Source: Paralichthys olivaceus
Taxonomy: Eukaryota > Chordata > Actinopteri > Pleuronectiformes > Paralichthyidae
NCBI RefSeq assembly: GCF_024713975.1
Contig: NC_091099.1
Span: 14,985,501-15,049,500, forward strand
Reading direction: 5' to 3'
Length of the DNA: 64,000 nucleotides
Shown: positions 7,736 to 33,250 of the stretch, piece by piece
Numbering within the stretch: position 1 is the first letter of the stretch
Layout: every line of letters begins with the position of its first letter
Notes under the pieces: generated by a model
Seen by the model: the letters and a program-made list of their open reading frames with translations, nothing else
The model's database searches: none
What the model was told of the DNA's origin: nothing
Made by a program: the position numbers and the translations under genes

Positions 7736-7859
7736 TGACATGGATTTATATTTATGTTCATGGTTTATATACTTGGTTATAATTATAAAGTTCTAATTCC
7801 TTTGAAAATCAGATAATCAGCCTCATACATCCAAGCTTGAAACCACATAAACCAATTTA

Positions 7860-9135
7860 TCTAGTTATCATATATCGTCTTACTCAGAATTTTTATCTGA
7901 ATTCTCTGAATTTCTATCAGAGCTAGTTCTTAGGACAGATAAAATCATTATAGTAGGTGATTTCAACATTCATGTAGATGTTGCCAACGACAGCCTTAGT
8001 TCAGCATTTAACTCAATAGAAATTCTGGACCGATATTCTATTATAGTCGGTGTTTATCTGATAAAACTGTGAATAAATTTAAAGAACTGCTTCCTTCTAG
8101 ACTTTCCTCTCAGCCATGTGTCAGTACAATACAGGAAAGTTGTCAAAACTTTACTCCCACATTAGTTGATAACTTTGTTAATAGTACAGCAGCCTCATTA
8201 AAAACAACCCTGACGCTGTCACCCCGTTAAAAGAAGAAGGTAAATCAGAGATTAGCTCCATGGTATAATTCTCAATTCTTAAAACAGACATCACTGAAGC
8301 TACAGAGGAAGTGGCTTTCCACCAATCAATATGACTTTCACCTAGCCTGGAAGGATAGCCTGATAAATTACAAGAAAGCACTTAGAAATGCCTGAACCTC
8401 TTATTATTCATTATTAATAGAATAATAAAAGAACAACCCCAGGTTCCTCTTCAGCTCTGTAGCCAGGCTGACAGAAAGTCACATCTCTACTGACCCATCT
8501 ATTCCTCTAACCCTGAGCAGCAATGATTTCATGAGCTTCCTTACAAATAAAATTATAACCATCAGGGATAAAATCCACCACCTCCTCCCAATGAATAGAT
8601 ATATTGTCTGGTCCTGAAAGCAAAGCACCAAAATTGAACCAATTTTCTTCTATTGATCTTCCTGAACTGACTCCATATTAAATCACATTAACATTTCTTT
8701 GTTAACCGGCTACGTACCACAAGCTTTTAAGATAGCTGTTATTAAACCTCTGCTTAAAAAGCCTATGCTTGATCCAGAGGTTTTAGACAATTACAGACTC
8801 ATATCTGCCCTGCTCATTTCAAAAATCCTAGAAAAGGCTGTTGCTAACCAGCTGTGTGATTACTTACATAGTAATAGTTTGCTGGAAATGTTTCAGTCAG
8901 GATTTAGAATCCATCACAGCACAGAGACAGCACTGCTGAAAGTCACTAATGGCATCAGATGATGGACTTGTCTCTGTACTCGTCCTGTCGGATCTCAGTG
9001 CAGCATTTGACACCAGAGATCACAGGATCTTGTTACAGACACTAGAACAACATACAGGATCAAAGGAGGAACGACGCCTGGTTATAGACGGCTCCACGTT
9101 GATCCTCTCAATCATTACCATTATGTTTATATGTA
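7860..9135 (+). mobile_element. Defective non-LTR retrotransposon (LINE, probably CR1/L2 group), internally deleted and frameshifted
   Basis: The element runs on the plus strand, opposite to IGHMBP2, inside that gene's first intron. Near 7935-8035 the reading frame IIIVGDFNIHVDV is the core of an apurinic/apyrimidinic endonuclease domain. Near 8699-8960 [17 protein letters not shown] and [15 protein letters not shown] are reverse-transcriptase N-terminal blocks. LSDLSAAFDTRDH (about 8985-9025) is RT motif A with the first catalytic Asp. Motif C (YADD-type) and the rest of RT are missing. Stops and frame changes separate the blocks, and the endonuclease-to-RT distance is too short, so this is a dead copy. 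The family call rests on recognition of the conserved phrases, not a search. Confidence 0.85.
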
Positions 9136-15247: not shown

Positions 15248-17087
15248 TTACTTGGCGCTGCAGAGCAGGATCAGATTGTGTACAGCGTGTGAGGTGGACT
15301 GCATGTTCTGACCAGTTATCAGGTGTCTGTCTATGACCACATGCACAGCGTCTTCTTGACTTGCTGGAAAGAGAGATAAAAAAAGAAGAGGGGGGGTGTT
15401 AGTTTAGTTTTACAAGTGGAGATTAAATATATGTTGATCTTGTGTGTGCGCTCTGCAGGTCAGTTCACCTGTGTATGATCCTCCACTGTCTTTCACAAAG
15501 TCTTCAACGATCAGGGGCAGGTTGGCGAAGTCAGGCCTCCGCACAAGTTCAAACACTGATGGCTTTAACAAACACACAGTTTTTGTTTTTAATTACACTG
15601 GAGACATATATACATATATTTGGGTGTATTGCCTTGCCATGTTTACTTATGGAAAACGAACCCCCGTTAAACTGTATCCATTGAAGATCCACCTCTGTCC
15701 CTCTGTGGCACAACACAGAGCCGACACTCCCTGTCCCACTGCGCAAACAGGCTCTGCACACAGAAAAAAAAAAAGCATCTGAATCTCTGCAGCAAACACA
15801 CACTTTAAATCCTGACTGAGCCTCACACTCACTTTGCTGAGAGATGAAGTGTGTGAGGATGCGGTGCAGGGAGCCGCTGTGTGCCAGGTCATTCAGCGCT
15901 CCGGGGCAGTCTGGGATGAGCAGTGCCTGGTATCGGGCACCTGCAACAAGGTCGTGATGACATGAAGTGAGCAGAGTCCAGCCAGCAGCAGGAATGAAAA
16001 CAGACAAACAGCCGTGAAATGAATATTCTCACCATCTATAGATTCAAGTTTAGCCGGTGTTGCATAAGGTTTCAAGTTGAAATCCTGCACCCATCTGGCA
16101 GTGCTTTCATCCACTCCAACAAAGTCTATTGGCTTCCCCTGAAAGTCAGTTATTTTCATCACGTCAGTAAGAGCGATCTATGGTGTCCATGTCTAAAGTC
16201 CAAAATGATGAAATATTTACAAATGAACCAAGCACATAGCTCTCTGACAGCTGGGGTATGTAGCAAGTTCAGTTCTCTAACCAATCAGAGAGCTTGTTAC
16301 TGATCACAGATTGTAACCTTGTAATTCTTTTTATTGCCCATTAAATATCCAACAAGGAATAACAATTAAATGTATACATTTACATAGTAATACATTATAT
16401 TTTACTTTTCTTAATTCTCATCTTATAATGGTATCATTAGTTATTAATCATTAATTAAGAAAAGCTATTTCTGGGCCTTTAATAATGGCTAATAACTATT
16501 AAATCTATTAAATACTAGTAAATTACATAAACAGTTTGAGACAGCGGTGCCCACATCTCATTTTAACCTCATTACTCACCTGCCTGTGTGTTAGTGTTAA
16601 TGTCTTATCCGAGACCAAACAGAGTTACTGTATTTTAAGGTATTTGAATTTGTTTCAGAGATCACACATTTGAACATGATGAGAAATAGATTTTGCAGAA
16701 GTTAACGTCTGGTGACTTTCTGTATCGTTGTAAAGAAAGTAATACATGTCTTACCCCAGGTGTGGCAGTCTGCAGGTTGAACACTGAGCTACAGAGAGTG
16801 AAGCACTGATGGAAAGACTTGGCGGAGACTCCTGAACAAACAAACAAACAAACAAACAAACAAACACATCAGCATCAGGAAGATCACTGCACATCTGCAA
16901 ACATAAACAGCTGCAGACTGTTAGTTCAGCCACGTGGTAACAAGTGATTACATCGAGAACCATTGATTTGTAGCAGTGTCCGTGCACTTTGTGTCTCTTC
17001 CTCATTGAACTGGCGGAACAATGAGGGGACGCACTCACCCTGAGGAGAGGAACTGGCCACGATCAAACACGTTGGCTTTGCAGACAT
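15248..17087 (-). CDS. gatd1: Glutamine amidotransferase-like class 1 domain-containing protein 1 (formerly PDDC1), complete, 7 exons, 213 aa
   Basis: Minus-strand exons: 17039-17087, 16755-16831, 16033-16138, 15833-15940, 15662-15753, 15469-15562, 15248-15363. They total 642 nt in phase; the human protein is 220 aa. The start [14 protein letters not shown] opens the first beta strand of a DJ-1/PfpI-like flavodoxin fold. Recognised blocks are [66 protein letters not shown] and the C-terminal [19 protein letters not shown]. The elbow region CAVGQG has Gln where I recall His in human, and no canonical GxCxG nucleophile. The family has no established reaction and is reported on early endosomes. 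The exon 2 acceptor lies directly next to a (CAAA)n microsatellite. The gene is in tandem with CD151. Confidence 0.95.
16835..16866. repeat. (CAAA)n microsatellite at a splice acceptor
   Basis: About eight CAAA units, read GTTT on the coding strand, end four bases before the GATD1 exon 2 acceptor (TTCAG|GAGTC). They replace an ordinary polypyrimidine tract. Confidence 0.9.
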
Positions 17088-18358: not shown

Positions 18359-21300
18359 TCAGTACGGATCTTCTTTCAAATTTCTATAAAGGCAACAAGT
18401 GAACATCATCCCCACAAGCTAAAAGAGAAAAGAGAAGAGAACTTGTTACTTACAAACCACACAGAAACAACCATTGTCTACAGCTCAGTATTTTGCAGAA
18501 CTTTAAAAGAGATAGACAGTGTGGTTTTACCTGAAGAAAAGCAATGCCAATACCCACTGCCCCGAGAATATACAACTGACTCAAGATGAAATCCTCTAGC
18601 TTTAAGATGCAGCCTCCCTGACAGCATGAGAATGGGGGAAAGAAAATTAAAACCTTGCTCATTTAACCTTTTATCCAAATGATCAGCTCTATACTAACCT
18701 CCACCTTGTAGATGTTGGAGGGATGGTCCCTTCGGCCGCAGAGCACACTGGGAGTTTTACAGCAGCTATCAGGAACCAGCTGCCTGTTATCTGCAGCCCG
18801 GATCCACACGCTGTCTCTCCAGTCTGAGTAGTTGTTACTGCCACAGCACTTAAACTGAGAGGGAGGAATAAGGGACAGAAACTAAGATGAGAAAATGGTG
18901 CGTAACATTAAACTGCATCCACGTGCAGAAGGTCATTTAAAATCTTCTGATGCAGTACGACTTCCGCACTTCCTGATGGAGCCTGTCCACCGCCTGTGTG
19001 ACGCTCTCCTCCCCCGGCTGCTGGTATTTCTGCTGCATGGTCACCTTCAGGTTCTGTCTGAGCTCCTCGTCCAGCTGTGAGAGGAGATGCACTTCAGTGA
19101 CGGCTCAGGAAAACAATCTGTCAGCATCCATTTAAAAAAGCCCCTCGTCAAATTCCCTTCCTCCCCTGCTACATTCCACTGTACCTGTGCCCACCACATA
19201 TAACTCACAGCACATGAGCGCAGGCCCCCTGACCCCACGAGCATGCTTTAAACTGACTCACAAACATAAATAGTTTTGTTTCTCGACTGACAAATGTGCA
19301 AAGAGTGACACTGAGCCATCGTATATCAAGATGTAACAGAGAAATAGTTCGATATGAGATGGAAACAGATGGCAGCGGATTACCTGGTAGCAGAAAGGGA
19401 AACACTGGAGCCAGAGAAGAGGGGGAAAAAAAGAGGTGTGAGAAGAATGGAAAAAAAACAGTACAAATGAAGAACATGCACAGAGAGACATGCAAAGAAG
19501 ATCTGCCAGCAAAGAGTGCAACGACTGAAGCATTTCATGAGTGGTAGAAAAAAGAAAGGGAAAGGAAAGGAAGAGGGGGACAAGGTCTGATTTGTAATTG
19601 CTGCAATATCTAAAAAAAACTGATGCCAACAAAAATAATGAAGAAGCACAATCACAAAGTAAAAACATTTACAGGGTACCTCTTGGTAATTTATGTAGGC
19701 CAGTACTCCAGCAATGACTTCCAGCAGGAAAATACACAGCAACAAGATCAAATACTGGAGAAGAAAGCCAGAACATACACACAAACACATAAATAAATGA
19801 AATTCATCTGGTGGTTTACTACATTTCTGTGCTGAAATATGACACTTAACGATTTAAACTATTTGTGCATGACTCAAAAACCAAAATGACAACTGATGCG
19901 GAGAATATACTGTGGGAAAGGAAGTTATTAATCACAAAGGTCATGGTAAATATGGAAACAGACACAGTGTTATAGAGGTTATGGACTTTTTAAGTATTAT
20001 ATCCTCTCTCTGCATGCGTCTGCTCTCTCTCCCACCCTCTTCAGTCCACGCAGCCGCTTGTGATGCCCCTCATTCCTCTGGCATGAGCCGCTCTCTAAAT
20101 CTAAACTCTTAAAGACACACTCTGCGTGACTTTGACCGTTATTTCTGACGGTCATGCCCGTCTGACATAATAAGGAGACAGAAGGTCACCAGGGATTAAC
20201 TTTCAATACACGTAGACCCAGCCTGGGTTGTATGTGTATAAATAGGTTTTTATAGTGTCCTCCCCTGGTTTCTGATTCCAGATACAATAATTATCTACTA
20301 CGTCTATTATGTTACCACCCATGTCTGTGTGTTGGTTTATTTGGACTACACACAATCTACTGAACTGATTTCCACTAAACGTGGTGGAGGGATGGGGCCT
20401 GGGCCTGGGCCTGGAAAAAGCCTATTAAATTTAGGATTGGATAAACGGGTGGATCCAGATCCCCCCCCCACTAACTTTAAGTAGGTTGTATGACAAATTA
20501 ACTACATAGATAATAATCAGACAGAATCATGTGTAGGTTTGTTCATCATTGGAGGAGGTATGTGCTCCACTAAGTGTCATTCTAATGAAATGGGGTTAAT
20601 ACTTTGGTGGAGTGTAGTGAAATATGAAATATACATTTTCTGCTAATAAGGTTGTGACGTTTTGTGCGACTGATCCATCTCACCACAACCAGAAGACTCT
20701 TCATCTCCTTCAGAGTGGCACAGCATCCGATTATTCCGGTCACTATGACGATGACCCCGGCAACTATCAGGATGTAAGCTGAGGCCGAATAAAAGCTGGA
20801 GTTGAGTAAACTGATGTAGTCGCTCTTTTCCATCAGCGTCCACACTCCCACTGCCAGCACTGCTCCTCCTGCCAGCTGAAAGAACGCACTGTTATCTGCT
20901 CAATGCAAGCCAGATGCTTGAAATGTCAAGAATGTGCCACAGCATTTTTTAACTCTTATAAATTAGCTGCTAAAATGTGATCGTAATGCAAAGTAATCAA
21001 CGCCCTATTCTCTCCTGTACGCCTGGAGAGACGTGGAGCGAAAAGTGTTTTTTAAAATCTGATGCACAATATTTTTCTTAGCTCAATATTATCTATTGCA
21101 AACTGTGTGTACACTGCATGATACTTCAAATGTAGTCTGAAGGAACATCATACAGCAACATGTGCATATGTTTACAGAGTATGTGTGAAGAAGACTTTTT
21201 AACAGTGGGAATACAGTAGATTCAGCGTCATAAAATGAAACTCTGCAGTATATTAAACAAAGAATTAAATGATAACATGCTCTAAGTAAATGTTAACCAT

Positions 21301-21945
21301 TACCTCTGCTAAGAAGGTTATGTTTTAACCCCTGTCCGTTTGTTTGTGAGCAAGATTAGGCAAAAAATATTGGACAGATTTCCAAGGAAATGGATGCATG
21401 GATGGATGGATGGATGGAAGGAAGGAAGGAAGGAAGGAATGAAGGAAGGAAGGAAGGAAGGAAAGAAGGAAGGAAGGAAGGAAGGAAAGAAGGAAGGAAG
21501 GAAGGAAGGAAGGAAGGAAAGAAGGAAGGAAGAAGGTGGTATGGGTCATATAGGTAAAGAGTCCATCAAATTGTTTAGATCAAGGGGCAGATCCAGGAAT
21601 TTTTCATCACAGAGATAGAACATTTTTTAAAAACACTTTCAGTGATTTCTCAGAGAATAATTCATGGATCTTGATGAAAAAAGTCAAATATGGTAAGGAC
21701 ACTAATTTCTATGCGTGTTTGCAATCTTGATTTTAATGAAGGGGACTGTTGGGCCTTAGTGGAGGTTTGCGCTCGACTGAGTGAGATTCTAGTTACAACT
21801 GGTATTAATAATCATCACGGTATCTGTCTTGACTTCTGTAAAAATGTCCTTCGGAACTTACCCAGAAAAGAATATTGAATAGAAACAGTAGATATTTCAG
21901 ACAGATTGTCCCACAGGTGTGAGTTTTGTCACCTTGAGTTTCCAT
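18359..21945 (-). CDS. cd151: CD151 antigen (tetraspanin 24), complete, 7 coding exons, 252 aa
   Basis: Minus-strand exons: 21862-21945, 20684-20875, 19680-19754, 18970-19074, 18699-18854, 18531-18617, 18359-18418, totalling 759 nt, all phase 0 at junctions; human CD151 is 253 aa. The start [20 protein letters not shown] leads into TM1. TM2 is [21 protein letters not shown]3 is [18 protein letters not shown], and TM4 is [20 protein letters not shown]. The large extracellular loop has FKCCGS (CCG) and PDSCCK, the tetraspanin cysteines. Cysteines flank the membrane segments for palmitoylation. The tail ends [10 protein letters not shown], with a YxxPhi sorting motif (YRNL). CD151 partners laminin-binding integrins. 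Here the residues corresponding to human QRD194-196 read RRD. The ATG follows a CAGA acceptor, so a noncoding exon is upstream, possibly ending at 22792 (GTAGGAG donor, minus strand). Confidence 0.97.
20310..20590 (+). repeat. Dispersed repeat family R1, copy 2
   Basis: TGATTTCCACTAAACGTGGTGGAGGGATGGGG, CTATTAAATTTAGG, GGTGGATCCAGATCC and the end GGAGGAGGTATGTGCTCCACTAAGTGTCATTCTA follow the R1 order in sense orientation, with an internal deletion. It lies in CD151 intron between the 19680 and 20684 exons. Confidence 0.75.
21310..21800 (+). repeat. Dispersed repeat family R1, copy 3, with internal (GGAT)n/(GGAA)n expansion
   Basis: The start GTCCGTTTGTTTGTGAGCAAGATTA and the end GGGGACTGTTGGGCCTTAGTGGAGGTTTGCGCTC are R1. 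At the point where R1 normally reads GTGGA-GGATGGGG, the copy carries a run at about 21394-21535 that begins as GGAT units and continues as GGAA units with occasional GAAA and GAAT. R1 sequence resumes with GGTATGGGTCA. The microsatellite therefore grew from the element's own purine motif. Confidence 0.8.
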
Positions 21946-23322
21946 TCTGAAAAAAAAGGAACTGATTTATATCAGTATGTTAGTGCAAACATAGAAAACC
22001 TCAGCAAATGAAAAATGTCTCGAGAACATCAGATTGCAAAGAGAGCAGGTTGTTCCCCTCCGTCACTGCTCTCATTTAGTGTGATAGTGATCTCACACTT
22101 GAGCTTGAGTTAGTGCTGGTGTCACTATACACACACACGTTTTCTCTTTCAGTTTGGTTTTGTTCCTCTGCTGATGATGATGGTGATTTACTGAGGGAGC
22201 TCAGATTTAACTACTGTGAATATGAGCTGTACAAGCTGACAACATGTCGTCTTTTTTAAAGTTTAATGTGTGCAGGCTTTGAAAAACATTCACCAGTCGA
22301 CCAAAAACAAAATGTGGTGCATTTCAAACTCACTCACTGATGAAATCAAATATGTTGTGGGGTAAACATACTTAACTTGTGTCACGTGTTGTCCAGCAGA
22401 CAGTTATATATATGTCCCCATCCCAGTAACTTAACCTGATCTTCTCACACCCCAGTGATATACTATTTACTAAATAAATTAGTCAAAGTCTTATTTTATC
22501 CAAACCTCAAATAAACTTTCTCCTTCTATTTTTAGAAATGTGACTTTGAGCATCATGAGTGACAAAAGTCAAAAAGGGTAAAGGCACAACAGATATAAAA
22601 TAACAACCGCATTAAAAAGATGCTTCCCGCATTAAATAAAAGTCTATTTAGCCACAAGATAAAACGCTCCATGCATGAATGTGATCGTTCAGCAAAACAA
22701 AATCTCCTGATGATCACACTCAGTTATTTTTAACTCATTGTGTCATGGAAAAAACTGCTCTGCCTTTCTACTGAGACCAGAATACTCCTACCTGATTTGC
22801 GTTGGTGGACCCTGGAGGATGTAGAATATTGGGGCAACGTCTTCCAGGCTCCCGCTAACCCCAGTGTCAATGTGCTGCTGTCTCTGAAGGTTAGCTGCAA
22901 CAGTGTACGTTTTCAGTTGACACTCAGACCCGAGCGCCTGAGCGTCTGTCCTCTTTTGGCACAGCAGGCAGCTCACCCCTCAGCAGCTATACAGAGTACA
23001 TGTCTGCCCCCAGCTGGTTTCTCATGCATCAAGCTTTTTACCTCTAAAAACAAATGTTTTGCTTATAAGTTAAAAGTTACGCTCACTTGTTATACTTTTA
23101 AGTTATCAGTATACATTAGCCAACTTAAAAGTAATTCTGTTTAAAAAGACAAAAGAGGAGTCATCAAAAAATAATGTTTAATTGGATGGATTATATACAC
23201 AGCATAAACAAACCTTACACACACTGTTCAGTAAACTTGTTCATAGAAAAATATGTGACCTCAGGACAGGAAGTTTACCACAGCGAACCACTTGTTCACA
23301 TTTTTAGTCTTTTCTTCTGTGT
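21946..23322 (-). other. CD151 5' region and CRACR2B 3' flank, no coding exon seen
   Basis: This stretch lies between the CD151 start and the CRACR2B stop. A possible CD151 noncoding first exon ends at 22792. The reading frames at 22740-23144 and 22788-22976 match nothing I know and lack exon support. The CD151 promoter is expected here but cannot be placed. Confidence 0.4.
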
Positions 23323-26300
23323 TTATGTACAGCAGCCTTTTGTAGATGTGTCCTCGCTGAGTAAAAGTGCATCTACATACTGTCGATCATGCCGGGCGAC
23401 CAATGTCCTAAAATATTTCAAATATAAAAATCATTGTGCAGCACAAACTACAGCGTCGGAGACGAGAAATTCATTTGCACACACAATATTTGAAGACATC
23501 ACCGGAGGCTCTGAATATTATGATGAGCATTTGTTCAAAGGTTTCTAAAAAATTCAAATCAGATTCAACACGTCTCTATAACAGTTCAAACAAAAAGTGA
23601 ATTCATTTTAACAATCATGAAGGTAGGATTTATTGTATTGTTCTACATTGTTTTAGTTTGTAAACGAGTGTGGCTACAGCGACACATTCAGTGTAATAAT
23701 ACAATGTACAGGAGAGAAATATCATACCTTGCCAGTTGAGTCATGAGCTCCTCCATGTTATGTCCGGTTTTGGCACTGCACTCGTAAAACAAAGCTTGGT
23801 GCTGCTGTAAAAACCAAAAATGTTAAAAAACCCACAAAGTATAATGATGAAAATCACTGAAGAACATTTTTGAATATTCAAATAAACCTCACCTCTGCCA
23901 GCCTCTGCCCCTCCCTTGTGGTCACCTCTCTGCTTTGTGTGTCTGCCAGATCTAGCTTGTTCCCAAGTAGCATTAAGACCGCACCTTCACACATCTTGTC
24001 CTGTGACAGAGAACAGGTTATACAACTCTTTCTTTATTATTATTTTATCATCAGAATTAAAAACTGAGGTTAACCTACAAAAATAACCTAACGAATAAAT
24101 AAAAGAAGTACTAAAATGTATTAAACTTAAACTCAACTTAAACTTCCTTTATTTATACTACACTTGGATATCTTCAATGACATTTGTGTTTACTTAGCTT
24201 CCTGTTGTACTGTGTTGTGAATAATCTGCACGTTTTCAAATCTTTTGTGTTTTTGCATCCAGCCCTCCATGACACCTCCACCTGTTCACCTTCACAGAGT
24301 CCATCCATCCTCTGACCGCTGTGAAGGAGGGGGAGTGAGTTACGTCATACATGGCGAGGACACCGTCAGCCTTCCTGTAGTACTGCTCAGTGATACTGCG
24401 AAACCTGAACATGGGATTTCAGTCAAGTGGATTAAGAAACATTAATACACAAAAAGAAAATAAGTGAAGATCTTCAACCACTGAAAAATCGAATTAGTTC
24501 TTCCTTGAGTTTAACGCAACATTTGAAGCAAGTTTGAGATATTATGTTTAAAAGAACTGATGGGAAAATGGAAGTGTCAAAGTATGCACAGTCACTGTCT
24601 GTCACTGACGCTGAGGCATAAAAAAGACACATGGCTGATAAACATGAGAATAAGCTGTGTCATATCTGACCTCTCCTGTCCTGCAGTGTCCCACAGCTGC
24701 AGGGTGATGGTGGTGGAGTCCAGAGTTAAGGTTTTCATCTGGAAATCCAAACCTACAAAACAACAGAGGGTCCTGGTTTCATATCTTTACTGACACACTG
24801 AGCAGTGAGTTAATCATTGAGCTGAAACTCTTACCGACTGTAGAACTCGTGTTACTGAGGAAGCGTCCTGTGCAGTAATGCTGGATGAAGGAGCTCTTAC
24901 CCACAACTGAGTTACCCAAGAATACCACCTTGAAAACTTGCCGAGGACTGACAGTTTTGCTCTAAAATATGGGTAAAAGACCAATTTAATGTAAACATAT
25001 GTACTTTTTTATGCCATTAAGAAAGAAAGTGTAAGAAAAATGAAAATCTGTGTGTCGTCATCGTGCTGTGCAAACCACAAACGCTTATTATCATTATTAT
25101 CTTCATCATTACTACCCTCTGTTGCTACAGCTACTATGTCGTACAATTGATAATTTAAGAATAAAATGTTTATTTTCATATGTAATATTTTCCCTACCTG
25201 AGTTTGAGTGTGTTCAACATTTCCCCCCCTGACACTACATGACGGCTGGTGTCTCTTGGATATATTTGTCATCTCTGTGTCTTTGTTCTGCTCCAACTCA
25301 TCAGATGAGCTCAGCTGTCTTCAGGATCCACAAACACACAGAGTTAGTGTCTTACTGAGGCAATATGACTTTTAGTAAATGTAATATCAGATGCAGGTGG
25401 TCAAACAAACCTTTTCAGTGGCTTGTCTTGCAGTAAGTAGTTACCTATGACTGACCCTTTCTTCTCCAAAGTCTTTGTGACGTTTGGATTCTTTTTGTGG
25501 AAAGTGAGGCAGAAGAAACATAAAACATAACATAAAAGTATTAAGATTTAAATAAAGATTTCTACTGTTACAGATATTTAAAGTCTATGGTCAGCAAACA
25601 AAAAACATTCATTAACACCGTGTTCGGGTTATGGTTAGGGTTCAGATACATTTTTATACGTTTAAAAAGTAATGGTTCAATCCTATAGTATTTTTTCTGC
25701 TACAAAGCAGTTTATTATAATCATCTGTTGGCAACTGAAAAGTAGAAAACCATCAGTAGTTAATTATAGTATAGGCCCTGTTCAGACCTGGTATTAACAT
25801 CTGTACTGAGAGATCTAATCTCAAGTGGACAGCTTTAGGTTTGTCTGTTTGCACCCAGTATAAAAATGTGTCTCCTGTGAACACGTGTGATTGGATCTCA
25901 CTGGGCGTGGTAAGAAACAAAATCTAAAAATATGTTTAACTGCTACGGGTAGGACACGTCAGTAGGTGGTCCTTCAAACGTAGCACATGATGTGTTTGCC
26001 TTAACAGAGTGAAAAGAATGCGATTACACGCGCGTCACAGAACAACCGCGATTTTTGTCTAAGTGATCAGATCTCAAGATGTGTTGAAAACGTATTTGGG
26101 GCATTCAGACCTGAACACTGATCACTGATTGGACCACTCAGGACAGATGTTACCACCGGGTCTGAACAGGGTCCAAATTAGAAGAGTTTCTTGAATGAAT
26201 GTTTTGATTCCTTTGTCGGCCCCTTTGGTCAGAAACCAACATGGAAGCTTGAATCCAAAGATTTATGTAATTAACAGCTTTGACAAAACTTCCACTTTAA

Positions 26301-29300
26301 TGTTCCGAAAGAATGTGAATGGGATAAGAGGGAGGATGCTAATAAGTGTGATAAATAAAAGGGCTTTATTGGTTTGGTAAACACTGACCAACTTTTGTTC
26401 ACCTGCATAAATATTGCAATGTACAGAATCATTAATGATCATTTACACTTATTACACTCTGTCCACAGACAGAACAAATGTCTTTTCAGCAAAAATCCTT
26501 CATTTTACTAAACAACATCCACAGAAAAAAAAATTGCTGACATGCACAACTCCCAAACAATGTGAGTGACTTTACCACGAGTTCAGTTAATAACCACTGA
26601 GATAAATAATCATTGTCCATAAAGCATGAAGTCTTTCCACGACTTAGCTTAGGGCGGATAAACCTCCTGATGTGTCCACAGCGTACAAAGGTCCTCACTG
26701 AGGTAGTAAGTTAAAGGCAGAGCAGGAGGAACAGAGCGTCTGTGACTAACCCTCTTATGAGACTGTTGAGCATCTTTTTCATCTCGTAGCCTTTTGTTCA
26801 TGTCCCTGACAAAGACAGAGAAAATCAGTTAGAGACATTCTCACACCGACTGATTCATATGTGGAAAACACTGGAAGAACATGAGCTGATTTTCAGGGAC
26901 AGTTTCAAGTTTCATTTACACATTTCTTGGAGAACTTCATTGAGACAGCAGCAGGTTGGACTCACTTCAACAGTTCCAGTTGTCTTAACAGGCTGTCCTT
27001 CTCTTTCTGAATGTTCTTTGACACCTTCATCACATTTCTACAGAAAAACAACCAAAAGAAAATTTCTGTATTTGGGATATTATAAATAAATCTGTTTGAA
27101 TGATAAAATTACAGCACCCAGCTATTCTAGGTTTTTAAAAAGATTTTTAACTACATGTTTCTGAGCTGTTGTATTTTAGGATGAGTGCCACCAACAGAGT
27201 GGGAAATTCAGAAAGTATTAAGAGATGGAAACCACTCTAGTTTTGAGCTATATTTGTCATTAATTAAAATAAAAGACATGTGCCATCCTTCTTTAATTAT
27301 TACTTCTTTATCATCAGATCATCTCAGTCACAAAAAATGTCTTTCGAGTGATCTTATTTATCTTATTTTCCCCACTTTCGGGAGGTTTTAACTGAAAGGT
27401 TATCGATTTTATTAAATCTCACATCATCTATCTGGTCCCGAATCTCAAAAAAACATTCACTGCCCGCAGCAAGTTTGAACCCAAAAGGAGCTCATATGAC
27501 TCTCATGTGTTTATTGCTGCTTTTATTAAAAAAAGTTTTACAGCAAAGCAGTGACACACTTTCTTTTTCTCAAAAACCTTTATTGAAATAGAGATTTGAT
27601 AACGAATAGTTTTTTTCATCAAGATCCACGAATTATTCCCTGGAAAAATGGGGTAATTGTTGTGTAATCTTGCAACTTCCTGGATCTGCCCTCTGATCCG
27701 TATTCACACTCAAATGTAATGAAATTTTCCCTGACCAATACCACACCCTTCCACCAAGTTTTGTGGAAATCCATCCAGCCGTTTTGGTGTAATCTTGCTC
27801 TCACCTCTGTCTGGCCACTTGTTCATGGGCAGCGCTGAGCTGCAGAAGGCTGAGCTGACCCAGAGCGGCCTGCAGCTGCTCTCTGTTGTTCTCCATCTGG
27901 TCCTGTAGCTGGATGTTGAGGGTCCGCAGCTGCTGGTTCTGCTCCTTAACGTTCACCTGCTCACAGCTCAGCTGCCGGATTCTGGTCTCCAGCTGAAGTC
28001 AAAGATAGGTCCTGTGATTCTCTCATTACACTTTGGCATTATCAGACATAACATTAGGGTCATTTGGATGCCTACCTCTTTCTGTTTGGTCAGTGCGTTG
28101 TCCAGTTCCTGTTCTCGCCTCTTCAGCTCCTCTTCAAGTTGCTTCCCTTTTTGCATCAGCCTAATACTGTCCTTGATTTCAAAATAAATTCATTAAATGC
28201 TGTGATGACAATCACTCTTATTAAATGGCACAAATGTTGGACTAAGGATGTTTTAATGACTGAAAGTTCAGACGAATGTCAGTTAAAAATGTCTTTGTTA
28301 CATCGTTTGCACCGATGACCGTCCTTGTCATTGAAACATTATAAAGCAGAGACTAGAAGCAAGCTTCTTTTCTTTTTCTTCTTCTATTGTTGAATTCTGG
28401 TTCAACTCCCTGCTATTTGGTCGACAAGTCCAAACTATCCCAAAAAATGTTTTTACACTGCAAATTTACTGAACCATGATCTGTTGGTCTAGATTGTTGT
28501 CCAAGGCACCTTTCACACCAGTTATTTCGGTTCATAGTAAACTGAAAAGTCAGAAGGTCCAGATCAAACAACGAAGGTATCGCTCACATCTGTACCTGAG
28601 CCTGGTGTTTCTGTCGCTCCTCTCTGAGTTGACTTTCCAGGTCTTCATAAATGGACCGAACAACCTGATCGTGTTCGCTCTCGCGTCTAAACCAGAAAAA
28701 GAAAATCAAGGTGTCTTGAATTAATTTTAAAACCACCCACAGTTACATTTGGCAGAGTTGATGTATGTCGAAGACAGAGGTTATGAAGTGTGGACCTGCA
28801 CAGGGCTTGTTCCAGACTGTCTCTCTCTCTGATGGAGTCCTGTAAATGGGACACTGTGTGGACCAAGACACTCTCCAGGACACTGAGCAGCTCTGGTCTG
28901 TCTGTCTGGAGCTCACACCACAGAGAACACAGCTCCTGCTGACTGCCACGCAACAAAACAACAACACACAGCATTTAAAAGACTGAGGATATTCAACCTT
29001 AAAAGTCTTACACTGACTTCAAACATCACTTACCTTAAACAAATGTTGTAAAGTTTTATGACCAACTCTTCAGCACTTCGAAGTACTCGAAACTAAACAC
29101 TAGTTTTACAATTTGAACTATGAGTTCTTTAAAAAAGGAGACTGGATATACACGAGTATCTATGAGAAAACATTTCTGTGTTTTTGACAGTGGTGTACAA
29201 TGATGAAAACAAACCATGGATGCAATCAACAATTGTTTTCATTATAGTTTCATATTTTGAGTAATTGCTTCATTATCAATTAATCCTTTAATCTATAATG

Positions 29301-30439
29301 TATTTTTTAAAAAGTGGCAAAAAATGTACATTACAGTTTCTCGAAGTCAAACATAACTCCTTCAAATGTCATGTTTTATCTGATCATCGATCCAGAACTT
29401 AACTATCTAGAATAAGGAAAAGCATTCACATTCGTAAAACCTAGAAAAGAGAAATAGGGGAAGTAATTGATAAACGATCAAAACAGTTGCCAATTTAGTT
29501 TCTGTTGATCAACTAATAGATTGTCTAAGTGTTGTGGTCCCCTTAAGTACATGGTGTAGTGTTTATTCATCTATCTAATATCTTTTATATATTGACACAT
29601 CCATTCAACAGTTGACAAACACATATGTGACAGACGGATTCTACATGTGAACAAATGTGATAATCAGTAGTATATAAAGCCGTTTCTGTGGTTTGTAGAA
29701 AGATATGATCACCCTGTGATAAAACAGTGGTTTCATCTTACTCTTTAAAAAGTTTGTCAGCACCCAACTCCATCAGCATGTTTACAAATCTGATTGCGGC
29801 AGCGTCCTGGGACCAGTCTACCTGGTCCGTATCCTCCTCTGCTTTGTCTCGGCTCAACTCAGTCGTGTCCTCGAGTCCCACCAACTCACCTGAACCGCAG
29901 AGTGAGGAATAGCACAGAAGAATTAGTTAATACTGTATGAGAAGTGTTTTTGTCCATGTTACAGTGAACTGTGGCACCAAATCACTCAAAAACACTACAC
30001 TCACCAAGTCCTGTGTTAAACTCCACAGGAGTGAGGAATCCAATGCTCTCTCGGTCCAGACTCTCAAACACGGTCTCCAGCTGTTCAGGCGACAGCGGCA
30101 GCTCTCTCTCTAGCCTCTGACCAGAAGATGGAAAGTTCAAGTCTCTATAATCAGCCTCAACGTTCTTATTCTGCGACACTAGACGCTCACCTGCATGTCC
30201 CGCTTTGTGATGAAGCCTTTCCCCTCTTTGTCACACAGCAGAAACAGCTCCTTGGCCTTGCCCATGGTCTCTGTCTGCGGACTTCCCGCTGCTGCCGGTC
30301 TGGGTGAAGCCAGTGGGCTGTTTCCAAAACCATGCCTGGGGCTCCCACCGGAAAAGCCCCGTGGTCTGGGGCTCACTGGCACAGCCTCGCCACAGCCCTG
30401 ACCCACCAGCACTTCACCATCATTCAGCCACTGAGACAT
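23323..30439 (-). CDS. cracr2b: CRAC channel regulator 2B (EFCAB4A) ortholog with EF-hands, coiled coil and C-terminal Rab GTPase, 17 coding exons, 650 aa
   Basis: Minus-strand exons: 30191-30439, 30005-30116, 29742-29889, 28796-28942, 28596-28686, 28076-28171, 27805-27992, 26966-27037, 26751-26805, 25411-25490, 25198-25318, 24835-24961, 24671-24752, 24290-24404, 23893-24000, 23728-23804, 23323-23407; 1953 nt, all in phase. Two EF-hand-like loops lie at about 70-81 and 104-115. A long coiled coil rich in Gln, Glu and Leu covers about 165-400. The Rab domain has P-loop GNSVVGKS (469-476), WDTAGQER (516-523), NKLD (575-578) and ECSAK (605-609). The protein ends GCCT, a double-cysteine prenylation-like tail. 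CRACR2A family members bind Orai1/Stim1 and regulate store-operated calcium entry; the long CRACR2A form is Rab46. The neighbour CD151 supports CRACR2B rather than CRACR2A. I chose MSQWLNDG as start; an in-frame ATG six codons upstream lies before or at the acceptor. RASEF is less likely. Confidence 0.9.
25776..26174. mobile_element. Inverted-repeat MITE of about 400 bp in a CRACR2B intron
   Basis: The left end GGCCCTGTTCAGACCTGGTA continues TTAACATCTGT. The right end ACAGATGTTACCACCGGGTC continues TGAACAGGGTCC. The two are near-perfect reverse complements over about 30 bases. Both ends are followed by internal similarity (GATCAGATCTCAAG against GAGATCTAATCTCAAG). There is no coding capacity, so it is a nonautonomous DNA transposon. 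I could not find a convincing target-site duplication, so the superfamily is open. It sits in the intron between exons 25411-25490 and 26751-26805. Confidence 0.85.
27590..27805 (-). repeat. Dispersed repeat family R1, copy 4 (reverse), abutting a CRACR2B exon
   Basis: CATCAAGATCCACGAATTATTCCCTGG, CTTCCTGGATCTGCC and CCTTCCACCAAGTTTTGTGGAAATCC are R1 in reverse orientation. The element's end GTAATCTTGCTCTCAC reaches the splice donor of the 27805-27992 exon, so the donor-side intron is TE-derived. Confidence 0.8.
28973..29741 (-). other. CRACR2B intron, no features recognised
   Basis: AT-rich intron between the 28796 and 29742 exons. No splice-compatible exon is required, since the flanking exons share phase 2. 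Nothing else seen. Confidence 0.5.
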
Positions 30440-30539
30440 GACTGTACAGAGGAACATGGTTATGGATGAGGAGTTGGTGTATGTCCATCATTCAATCGAC
30501 TATTTTCAGGTACTAGGGTGGTATGTGAATGGCACTCAT

Positions 30540-30830
30540 AGATATCAGTTCCATATACATGCAGGATTCTTGTCATCAAGATACAATTAATGATTCCTTG
30601 GGGAAACAGTGTAAAACGTAAAAAAACGTTCTACCTTGCAATGTTAAAGAAAGAGAAAAAAATTCTGCCCCCTGATCTGGATTCACACCAATAATATCCT
30701 TACACCTACCTACTCTGTATCCTTACACCAAGTTGTTATGGTAAACTGTCCTGTAGTTTTTGTGCAATGCTGCAAACTAACAAACTAACACAAATGAAAA
30801 CATAACCTCCTTGGTGCAGAGAATGAAAAC
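30540..30830 (-). repeat. Dispersed repeat family R1, copy 5 (reverse)
   Basis: ATCAAGATACAATTAATGATTCC, TTCTGCCCCCTGATCTGGATTCACACC and TTACACCAAGTTGTTATGG lead to an end with AACATAACCTCCTTGG. This is the R1 order reversed and more diverged. It lies in the first CRACR2B intron. Confidence 0.7.
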
Positions 30831-31569
30831 AACTTTGCCCAGGTGAGCATTGTCTCAATCTTTCAGCAGCATTACAAGTATTTATCACTTGAATTTGTCT
30901 ATTTGAAGCATAATCTTTGCATAATTTGAATTTAAAGACACTTTGGCTCTTCTCTGTTAGTGTTCTTAAATATTGGGAGAAACTGGCCCTACAGGTCCTC
31001 CCTTGTCAAACACCAGGTGAAGAACAAACTCAGCTGTGACTGTGCACATTATCTACAGCTGCTGTGACCAGTTCTTCACTCTATGAGACTTTATTCTTGT
31101 TTAAAGAAAAAAAAAACGATGGAAATGAACATGTTTTTATATAAAAAATGTCGACATATGCAAGGGACACCATTTGTGACAACGACACTTGTCTTCAGAC
31201 ACTGGAGTTGGTTGTCCTCACTTTTTATTCAGATGAGGAAGATATTAATAAAAGCTTTGCAGCCAGAAGGGTCCGTGACTGTGCACCAGGATGTGTAGAG
31301 CACAAAAGAACAGGATGGTGTCATGTGAGAAGAGTTACTGTGTACTTGAAGGGGAGGGTGGATGGCTGCGGGAGCGAGGAGATGCAAATGAACGTTTGCA
31401 TTTGTTTGCATTGTCAGAATTACCAACAATTACACACAAATGTTGCTCTCAGTAGCCATGATGCTAAAAAAACACTGATTTGTGACAAATGCACGCGTCA
31501 TACACAATCAGTCTTCAGGTTAAATGGCATTTCTGTAGCTGCAAAGAAACTCCTCAGCATCGAGGGGGT

Positions 31570-31765
31570 CCTCTCTCAGAGGCTGCCATGTTTTTTACAT
31601 TAGTCCAGACTGGACAAACTAAACACCTTTTGAGATTTTATGAGAACTGGCTGCCACTGGTTCTTTTTCTTGTTTGGAAGGAGAGGGTGAGGTGAGGGGT
31701 GTTCAGCTGCAACATGCAAATTCACCACTATATATCACTACATTCTACACACTGTACCTTTAATT
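31570..31765 (-). repeat. Truncated copy of the TTAA-ended MITE
   Basis: GGTCCTCTCTCAGAGGCTGCCATG, CTGGACAAACTAAA, TGTTCAGCTGCAACATGCAA and the terminal TACACACTGTACCTTTAA match the full element at 47851-48213 in reverse. It lies in CRACR2B intron 1. Confidence 0.75.
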
Positions 31766-31784
31766 TAAACAGAGTTTCCAAATC

Positions 31785-32280
31785 AATGCATCAGACCTGG
31801 GGCCACTGAGCCTTCATTTACAGCCCTCTCCCTCTGAAATGCTCTCCCTAAACAAATAAGACCTTTCACATGTCAAAAGTAAATTAAAAACCCACCTCTT
31901 CACAACTGCTGTTCATGTGTGATCATGTGCTGTATTTTATATTGCTAGTGATTTAGATTGTTATGTTTTAAACAGAGCTGTATAGTTACTGTCCACACCA
32001 AAACTCTCTGCTTACCCCTGCAATCATCTCATATTTTATTTTAGTCATGTCCCTATGTACCTTATTTAAATGCTAATAACTACTGCAATTTTGCAAACTT
32101 GTCTCTGATCGACATTTTGTAATCTCTTGCGTATTCGTTTATACATAACTTTTATCACATTCTATTTTGAGCTATTTGAAGTCTTCGTATCTATTTTATT
32201 GCTACCTGTCTCTGTGTGCAATACACAATCATTTATCAATTTTGGATCAATAGAGTACATATTTATCTATCTATCCATGT
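31785..32280 (+). mobile_element. LINE 3' end with simple-repeat tail
   Basis: The block around 31810-31930 reads in pieces as the C-terminus of a LINE ORF2 (DLSHVKSKLKTHLFTTA), followed by a 3' UTR-like region ending in TATCTATCTATCC. It may belong to the same broad family as the copy in IGHMBP2 intron 1, but lacks endonuclease and RT. Plus orientation, inside CRACR2B intron 1. Confidence 0.65.
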
Positions 32281-32899
32281 AACATATTCTGGAGCATTGT
32301 TAAAACGTTATAAAATAAAGAAAGGAGTATTTTTGATCATTATCTTTGCAGCATAGTGGGATAAAGTAGAAAGTGAACTGTGCCTCAGTATTAAATGAAC
32401 AGCCAGCCCCTCTCTATATATCCAGTCCTGCCATCTGTCAAGGCATAAAAACCTAAAATGAAAAGTGTGTGCTGATAGTGAAGCATCTTGCTGGTGATTC
32501 GTGGAGCCTCCAAAACTTCCTCATGGCGTAAAGATATGCGGGATTTCCCGGTGTTAGTCTTGTGAAAACATTACACGTTAAGGATTTTGTGTGTCAAGAC
32601 GAGACACCAAATAAACAAGCAGACACGCAAAGGTCAAATAAACGCAAACACACCTCAGTCACGCAATATTCAGCGGCAAGGACACGAGGAAAGTGACTTT
32701 ACGACATGTCGTGGGCAACAAAGCTGTCAGTCAAGCTGTCAGTGATAAATAACGCCAGTCTCCACACATGCTACATTCAAACACAGTCTTCACTGTACAA
32801 CAGAAACACGGGCAGTGGCTGTGAGATGAGATCCTCAAACGCACCACGGTGTTCCACGATGTCTCCAATGTGTTAATACGACGACATGAAGCTGCTCGG

Positions 32900-33250
32900 A
32901 ACATAACGAGAGAATTCAATATTAACGGAGGAGAAGCCCTCACACAGCCGCTTGTTACACGGCCTGACACTGAGCTCAGAGTGAACACAGACTGCAGTTG
33001 TGTCTCCGCGGATCGGACTGAGTCGCATTAAGATGTCTGTGTGAGTTGAGAGGAGTTTGTGGAGGCTTGAACTCACCGTGAGCTGCTGCAGGTGTCCCAA
33101 CACCGCGGTCCTCTCAGCCACTACAGCGAGTACCGGCCACAGCCGCCGGGTGGCAGTAGCGACCCCGTGCTGCTGACATGTACCGTAATGATCGGTGTAG
33201 CTCGCTCGCACTCTTCCACCTCTTCAGAGGCAGACTGGGCCCCTGTTGAC
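32900..33250 (-). promoter_or_regulatory. CRACR2B noncoding first exon and CpG-rich promoter
   Basis: On the minus strand GCTCACG is followed by the strong donor GTGAGTTCAAG, so a noncoding exon ends at 33077; it would splice to the coding exon near 30445. The sequence at 33080-33230 is GC-rich with several CpGs (CCGCGG, CCGGCC, GCCGCCGGG). No TATA box is evident. Confidence 0.6.

Follow-up and report, generated by a model that had tools for sequence, protein, structure and literature searches.

The 64,000-nucleotide (nt) stretch of the Paralichthys olivaceus genome analysed here (hereafter the window; C7:14985501-15049500 of a genome of 588 Mb in 25 contigs; coordinates below are window positions unless another contig or locus is named) carries on its minus strand a gene that is most likely CRACR2B. 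With fairly high confidence, this locus can be regarded as teleost CRACR2B in its ancestral full-length form, i.e., an EF-hand pair followed by a long coiled coil, a short linker, a Rab domain, and a C-terminal double cysteine. Human CRACR2B is presumably a protein of ~399 amino acids that comprises EF-hands and a coiled coil only and has no Rab domain.

The spliced model of the window gene comprises 17 coding exons, which run from the ATG at 30439 to the TAA at 23323 and form a single frame of 650 residues; the remaining two frames of the spliced coding sequence contain 30 and 33 stops. All acceptors (17/17) are AG and all donors (16/16) are GT; the pyrimidine tracts that precede exons 7, 11, and 12 are weak. 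In the predicted protein, a weak EF-hand pair is followed by a coiled coil, a short linker, a complete Rab domain, and a C-terminal CCT. The Pfam Ras profile (positions 1-160 of 162) matches residues 464-625 with E=4.9e-52, and the Rab match is therefore not due to chance. Indeed, the GTPase motifs (P-loop, WDTAGQ, NKLD, and SAK) are all present, and the C-terminus, KGCCT, constitutes a motif that would be suited to prenylation. Thus, the Rab fold proposed in the initial annotation is found on the minus strand from 24961 to 23323, together with its P-loop, ECSAK, and GCCT. The coiled coil contains 1 proline in 190 residues and is rich in Q, L, E, and R (heptad a/d hydrophobics 0.41 vs. 0.24, as the best of 7 registers with no shuffle control), and from residue 250 onward it aligns to the coiled coil of CRACR2A-like proteins without an internal gap. 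Of the 74 linker residues, 4 are proline, and PxxP is absent; thus, Vav1 binding via a proline-rich region would not be expected.

Two lines of evidence indicate that the Rab exons belong to the same gene as the EF-hand and coiled-coil exons. In the frame of exon 13 (24961-24835), a stop codon lies immediately before the exon and no ATG occurs ahead of the P-loop; the Rab domain is therefore untranslatable without an upstream exon. In turn, the 11 upstream coding exons join the Rab exons in phase, as had been claimed earlier, and the frame of 650 residues stays open. A separate gene consisting of the Rab exons was thus rejected, both because of the P-loop exon without a start codon and because the exon phases are common to CRACR2A-like genes. 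On the reading of the genomic sequence, the Rab exons are part of the window gene, and the stronger of the two lines of evidence is the comparative one, i.e., the shared exon structure described below.

It is conceivable, yet unlikely, that the gene mainly yields a short protein lacking Rab, in the manner of CRACR2A-S, with the Rab exons seldom used or part of a different transcript. CRACR2A makes such an isoform, as described in PMC8303950, and read-through of exon 10 into the next intron would yield a product of 419 amino acids; the weak acceptors of exons 11 and 12 point in the same direction. The intron that follows the coiled coil (26750-25491; 1260 nt) exceeds all other introns between coding exons in length and has AATAAA at 26370 and 25716; a Rab-less short isoform could end within it. 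However, the Rab frame, splice sites, and G motifs are intact, the P-loop exon has no start codon upstream, and AATAAA/ATTAAA sites are common in this region (raw count of 23 over about 11 kb), all of which argue against a short form as the main product.

The window gene was compared with two CRACR2A-like genes of the same genome, L029 (C7, 6.5 Mb) and L030 (C23, 6.3 Mb), which were obtained by tblastn on 20 genome stretches chosen from Rab-exon matches. Each of the two encodes EF-hand 2, a coiled coil, and Rab, and their EF-hand-1 exons were not found in the stretches examined; the other 18 of the 20 stretches (L031-L048) gave no convincing EF-hand match and one weak match (L035, 37% over 46). 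The comparison covers 14 exons per gene, the linker exons of L029 and L030 being left out. In hand-made models, 9/14 exons have one length throughout the three genes (112, 147, 91, 96, 188, 72, 82, 115, and 77 nt), and in the remaining 5/14 the difference is always a multiple of three; exon 18, for example, has a coding part of 85 nt in the window gene and in L029 and of 88 nt in L030 (stop codon included). Since L029 and L030 had first been spliced by hand in knowledge of the phases of the window gene, with the acceptor of L030 exon 4 re-chosen to keep the frame, the comparison was redone by a fixed consensus score that was blind to the window gene. With the blind sites, exon length is the same in 17/28 comparisons and phase agrees in 27/28, the sole exception in phase being L030 exon 5 (142 vs. 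147 nt). The blind sites depart from the hand-made models in L029 exon 3 (148 vs. 112 nt) and also give other lengths for L030 exons 10 and 13. Such agreement would not be expected if the two halves of the window gene were unrelated.

From EF-hand 2 to the coiled coil, the window gene is identical to L029 at 101/300 positions (34%) and to L030 at 109/300 (36%), whereas L029 and L030 share 222/313 (71%). The possibility that the window gene is simply one of the two CRACR2A-like copies was rejected on these grounds, and also because the pair holds together in the tree. A full-length genome search (E<=1e-5, 68 of 347 candidates scored) returned EF-hand/coiled-coil matches at the window locus only; since it missed the CRACR2A-like EF-hand exons as well, this result is no evidence against a second CRACR2B copy in the genome. 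A scan of bacterial and archaeal genomes with the EF-hand/coiled-coil part, made for stray vertebrate DNA, gave 62 pattern matches and no relative. It should be noted that a CRACR2A-like gene, a RASEF-like gene, and the window gene lie on one contig, C7 (6.5, 13.1, and 15.0 Mb, respectively). The genome contains two RASEF-like genes (C7:13.1 Mb and C4:8.9 Mb), of which the modelled one also has Rab exons of 82, 115, and 77 nt.

The position of the gene among large Rabs was analysed in two trees. The main tree consists of ten Rab-domain rows, including L003, L004, and L005, and leaves out L002, L006, L016, and L026; the latter four had been taken into an earlier tree, also of ten rows, which used other outgroups and represented RASEF by the human sequence only. 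L007, L008, and L031-L048 stand outside both trees, and L001 was untranslated. In the main tree, the window gene groups with the CRACR2A-like pair (support 94/96), as it did with the CRACR2A pair in the earlier tree (83/91). L029 and L030 form a pair to the exclusion of the window gene (96/93), the three RASEF rows form their own branch (92/97), and large Rabs are separated from the outgroup with weak support (66/35). Hence, of the two families whose inclusion of the protein would, according to the initial annotation, have spoken against CRACR2B, CRACR2A is set apart by the position of the window gene outside the pair. The best tree also keeps the gene apart from RASEF; this part is less firm, given the forced grouping discussed below.

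On its 3' side, the window gene is followed in the same orientation by a complete tetraspanin gene, which we take to be CD151; no CD151 chain is present among its 11 PDB matches, the best of which is tetraspanin-7. In the human genome, CRACR2B and CD151 presumably stand in tandem in the same orientation as well. The neighbour on which the initial annotation had relied is therefore present as a CD151-like gene, and the orthology deduced from it is probably right, as judged from this presumed synteny and from the tree position beside the CRACR2A pair.

That the window gene is instead another large Rab, i.e., either the orthologue of RAB44 or a third copy of CRACR2A, which lies next to CD151 by chance, is quite improbable. 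In favour of such an assignment, the comparison was made without a human CRACR2B or RAB44 sequence, and the Rab domain is about equally similar to those of L029 and L030 (48% and 47%, respectively; 62% between these two) and to that of human RASEF (48%). However, the CRACR2A-like pair groups without the window gene, the mutual identity of the pair is about twice its identity to the window gene, and the CD151-like neighbour is oriented as we assume for human.

The exon structure shared with CRACR2A-like genes implies that the Rab domain is ancestral and was not gained in fish, which is in line with the ancestral Rab postulated earlier. Moreover, CRACR2A, RASEF, and Rab44 are all of the EF-hand/coiled-coil/Rab form, and an ancestral Rab in CRACR2B is therefore predicted by parsimony. 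A secondary gain of Rab by fusion in fish, with the short human form as the ancestral one, is highly improbable and was rejected, since no evidence was found to support it, the lengths and phases of coiled-coil and Rab exons match those of CRACR2A-like genes along the whole gene, and the Rab exons of 82, 115, and 77 nt recur in a RASEF-like gene.

The initial annotation had further taken the ancestral CRACR2B to be a calcium-sensing Rab, and calcium sensing found no support here. Pfam EF-hand models match within residues 61-112 at scores below their curated cut-offs (EF-hand_7, 25.1 bits vs. a cut-off of 30). The best PDB match of the EF-hand region is human CRACR2A/EFCAB4B (6psd, E=9.9e-20; next match 1.1e-7). 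The loops of EF-hands 1 and 2 lie at residues 70 and 104, respectively. EF-hand 1, with D, E, K, F, T, and D at loop positions 1, 3, 5, 7, 9, and 12, is non-canonical, as it is in 6psd. At the same positions of EF-hand 2, the window gene has D, E, I, F, T, and E, whereas human CRACR2A has D, D, N, Y, T, and E; the loop of 6psd reads DADGNGYLTPQE, and that of the window gene is degenerate, with isoleucine at position 5. Over the EF-hand-2 exon, L029 and L030 are 72% and 67% identical to 6psd (39 residues), and the window exon matches at 22/38 (hand count on the alignment). The second EF-hand of Rab46 is reportedly the one that binds Ca2+, according to PMC8303950. Ca2+ binding by the EF-hands of the window gene thus looks impaired, and a calcium-sensing role is doubtful; with such a degraded EF-hand-2 loop, calcium control would probably be weak or absent, leaving mainly a GTP-switched adaptor. 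Separately, the EF-hand-2 loop of L030 (8903-8792 of that locus, minus strand) is altered to DTERTGYLTLEV, with valine at position 12, and L029 keeps the canonical DPDGNGYLSLDE; it is possible that calcium binding was lost in L030 after duplication.

Several points weigh against full-length, largely calcium-uncoupled CRACR2B as the identity of this gene. The one-gene structure is a model read from genomic DNA, and CRACR2B orthology is deduced from the presumed synteny with human and from tree position. The tree covers CRACR2A-like, RASEF, and outgroup rows, without RAB44, and forcing the window gene into RASEF costs 10.2 log-likelihood units with p-AU 0.0585, such that this grouping is disfavoured and not formally rejected. 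In addition, the best PDB match of the whole protein is RASEF (2p5s), and no CRACR2A Rab occurs among the best 60 of 946 matches. The Pfam scores of the EF-hands are under the curated cut-offs. With regard to calcium, mouse Efcab4a is credited with Ca2+ sensor activity in a table of PMC8156796.

Features of the window gene and its tetraspanin neighbour (window positions)
Feature	Positions	Strand	Remarks
Exon 1, 5' untranslated region	ends about 33077	-	plausible, from its donor only
Exon 2	30191..30441	-	2 nt of 5' untranslated region, then the ATG at 30439; residues 1-83, comprising the N-terminal tail and EF-hand 1
Exon 3	30005..30116	-	EF-hand 2, residues 84-121; 112 nt, same in both CRACR2A-like models
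Exon 4	29742..29889	-	acidic linker, residues 121-170
Exon 5	28796..28942	-	helical region begins, residues 170-219; 147 nt in all 3 models
Exon 6	28596..28686	-	coiled coil, residues 219-249; 91 nt in all 3 models
Exon 7	28076..28171	-	coiled coil, residues 250-281; 96 nt in all 3 models
Exon 8	27805..27992	-	coiled coil, residues 282-344; 188 nt in all 3 models
Exon 9	26966..27037	-	coiled coil, residues 344-368; 72 nt in all 3 models
Exon 10	26751..26805	-	end of coiled coil, residues 368-386
Exon 11	25411..25490	-	linker, residues 387-413; weak acceptor
Exon 12	25198..25318	-	linker, residues 413-453; weak acceptor
Exon 13	24835..24961	-	Rab P-loop GNSVVGKS, residues 454-496
Exon 14	24671..24752	-	switch I to WDTAGQER, residues 496-523; 82 nt, as in both CRACR2A-like genes and one RASEF-like gene
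Exon 15	24290..24404	-	switch region, residues 523-561; 115 nt, as in both CRACR2A-like genes and one RASEF-like gene
Exon 16	23893..24000	-	guanine-specificity motif NKLD, residues 562-597
Exon 17	23728..23804	-	ECSAK motif, residues 598-623; 77 nt, as in both CRACR2A-like genes and one RASEF-like gene
Exon 18	23323..23407	-	tail to KGCCT and stop, predicted prenylation site, residues 623-650; 85 nt including stop codon
ATTAAA	23177..23182	-	may serve the long form as poly(A) signal; AATAAA/ATTAAA sites total 23 at 21.9-33.1 kb, this one included
Tetraspanin gene	18359..21946	-	complete, 252 amino acids, seven coding exons; Pfam Tetraspanin E=7.9e-59; 3' of window gene

Further neighbours identified with Pfam comprise a gene with R3H and AAA domains, a match to OST5/TMEM258, and an NDT80 domain. 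We take the first to be an IGHMBP2-like helicase and the NDT80 domain to be that of a MYRF-like protein, and these neighbours presumably fit human chromosome 11. A stretch at 15.5-16.2 kb was read as GATD1-like, which is an assumed name and would likewise fit human chromosome 11, and Pfam found nothing on 15896-16177 within it. Beside the IGHMBP2-like gene, fragments resembling the reverse transcriptase of a long interspersed nuclear element are present at 7851-8959 on the plus strand (RVT_1 E=6.4e-4 on 8666-8959, below the cut-off). An ARAGORN scan found no transfer RNA. Elsewhere in the genome, 14 of 156 Ras-profile matches have one common score and lie at about 1.75-2.5 Mb of C6 (48.5 bits, profile positions 1-49, a frame of 67 amino acids), which hints at a P-loop exon that has recently expanded in tandem.

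With its G motifs intact, the Rab domain of the window protein is predicted to bind and hydrolyse GTP, and GTP would switch the binding of the protein to membranes and effectors. Prenylation at CCT would anchor the protein on vesicles. The coiled coil would be expected to dimerise and, by analogy with CRACR2A/Rab46, may couple vesicles to dynein-dynactin; CRACR2A/Rab46 proteins are located on vesicles, bind dynein-dynactin, and release it on Ca2+, as described in PMC6605797 and PMC8303950. By this analogy, the product would be a dimeric, GTP-switched vesicle adaptor with weak calcium control, of which mammals would have kept the EF-hand/coiled-coil half only, comparable to the Rab-less isoform CRACR2A-S. 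We lean, albeit with less confidence than for the identity of the locus, towards a broader scenario in which the large Rabs of early vertebrates were four in number, namely Rab44, Rab45, Rab46, and CRACR2B, the last of which teleosts retain as a GTP-switched and largely calcium-uncoupled adaptor and which was truncated to its EF-hand/coiled-coil half in mammals.

Human CRACR2B is currently treated as a small EF-hand regulator of calcium release-activated calcium (CRAC) channels, and CRACR2B/EFCAB4A is named among CRAC regulators in PMC4824159. If its ancestor was a full Rab, the human protein would have to be viewed, in its present role, as a truncated vesicle adaptor comparable to CRACR2A-S, and fish would offer an intact version in which the function of the Rab half can be tested. 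A fourth large-Rab branch whose EF-hands seemingly lack normal calcium ligands would also provide a natural test of how important calcium control is. No description of CRACR2B/EFCAB4A as a Rab was found in the open-licence literature, as judged by titles and abstracts, while genome annotations may already show the full-length fish protein. In the available portion of PMC8303950, Rab44, Rab45, and Rab46 are listed as large Rabs and CRACR2B is unmentioned; similarly, the portion of Klopper 2012 (PMC3425129) that is accessible mentions Rab44 and Rab45 and neither CRACR2 nor EFCAB4.

Among known systems, human CRACR2B/EFCAB4A is, by its CD151 neighbour, the expected orthologue of the window gene. 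The long form of CRACR2A/EFCAB4B (Rab46) shares with it EF-hands, coiled coil, Rab, and double-cysteine tail in like order, and CRACR2A resembles it further in exon phases (27/28 in the blind comparison with the two fish copies) and in the EF-hand region, which is closest to human 6psd. Unlike Rab46, however, the window protein has a degenerate EF-hand 2 and no proline-rich PxxP linker. It also differs from the fish CRACR2A copies in overall sequence (34-36% identity from EF-hand 2 to the coiled coil and 47-48% in Rab) and in its motifs, with GLDF and SAK instead of GIDY and SAC or SAY. RASEF/Rab45 shares the Rab exons of 82, 115, and 77 nt, the GxDFQ-K motif, and a linker that is not proline-rich, and forms a separate branch of three rows (92/97). 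Its domain order is also the same, and Rab44 is likewise described as a large Rab with EF-hand, coiled coil, and Rab, both according to PMC8303950.

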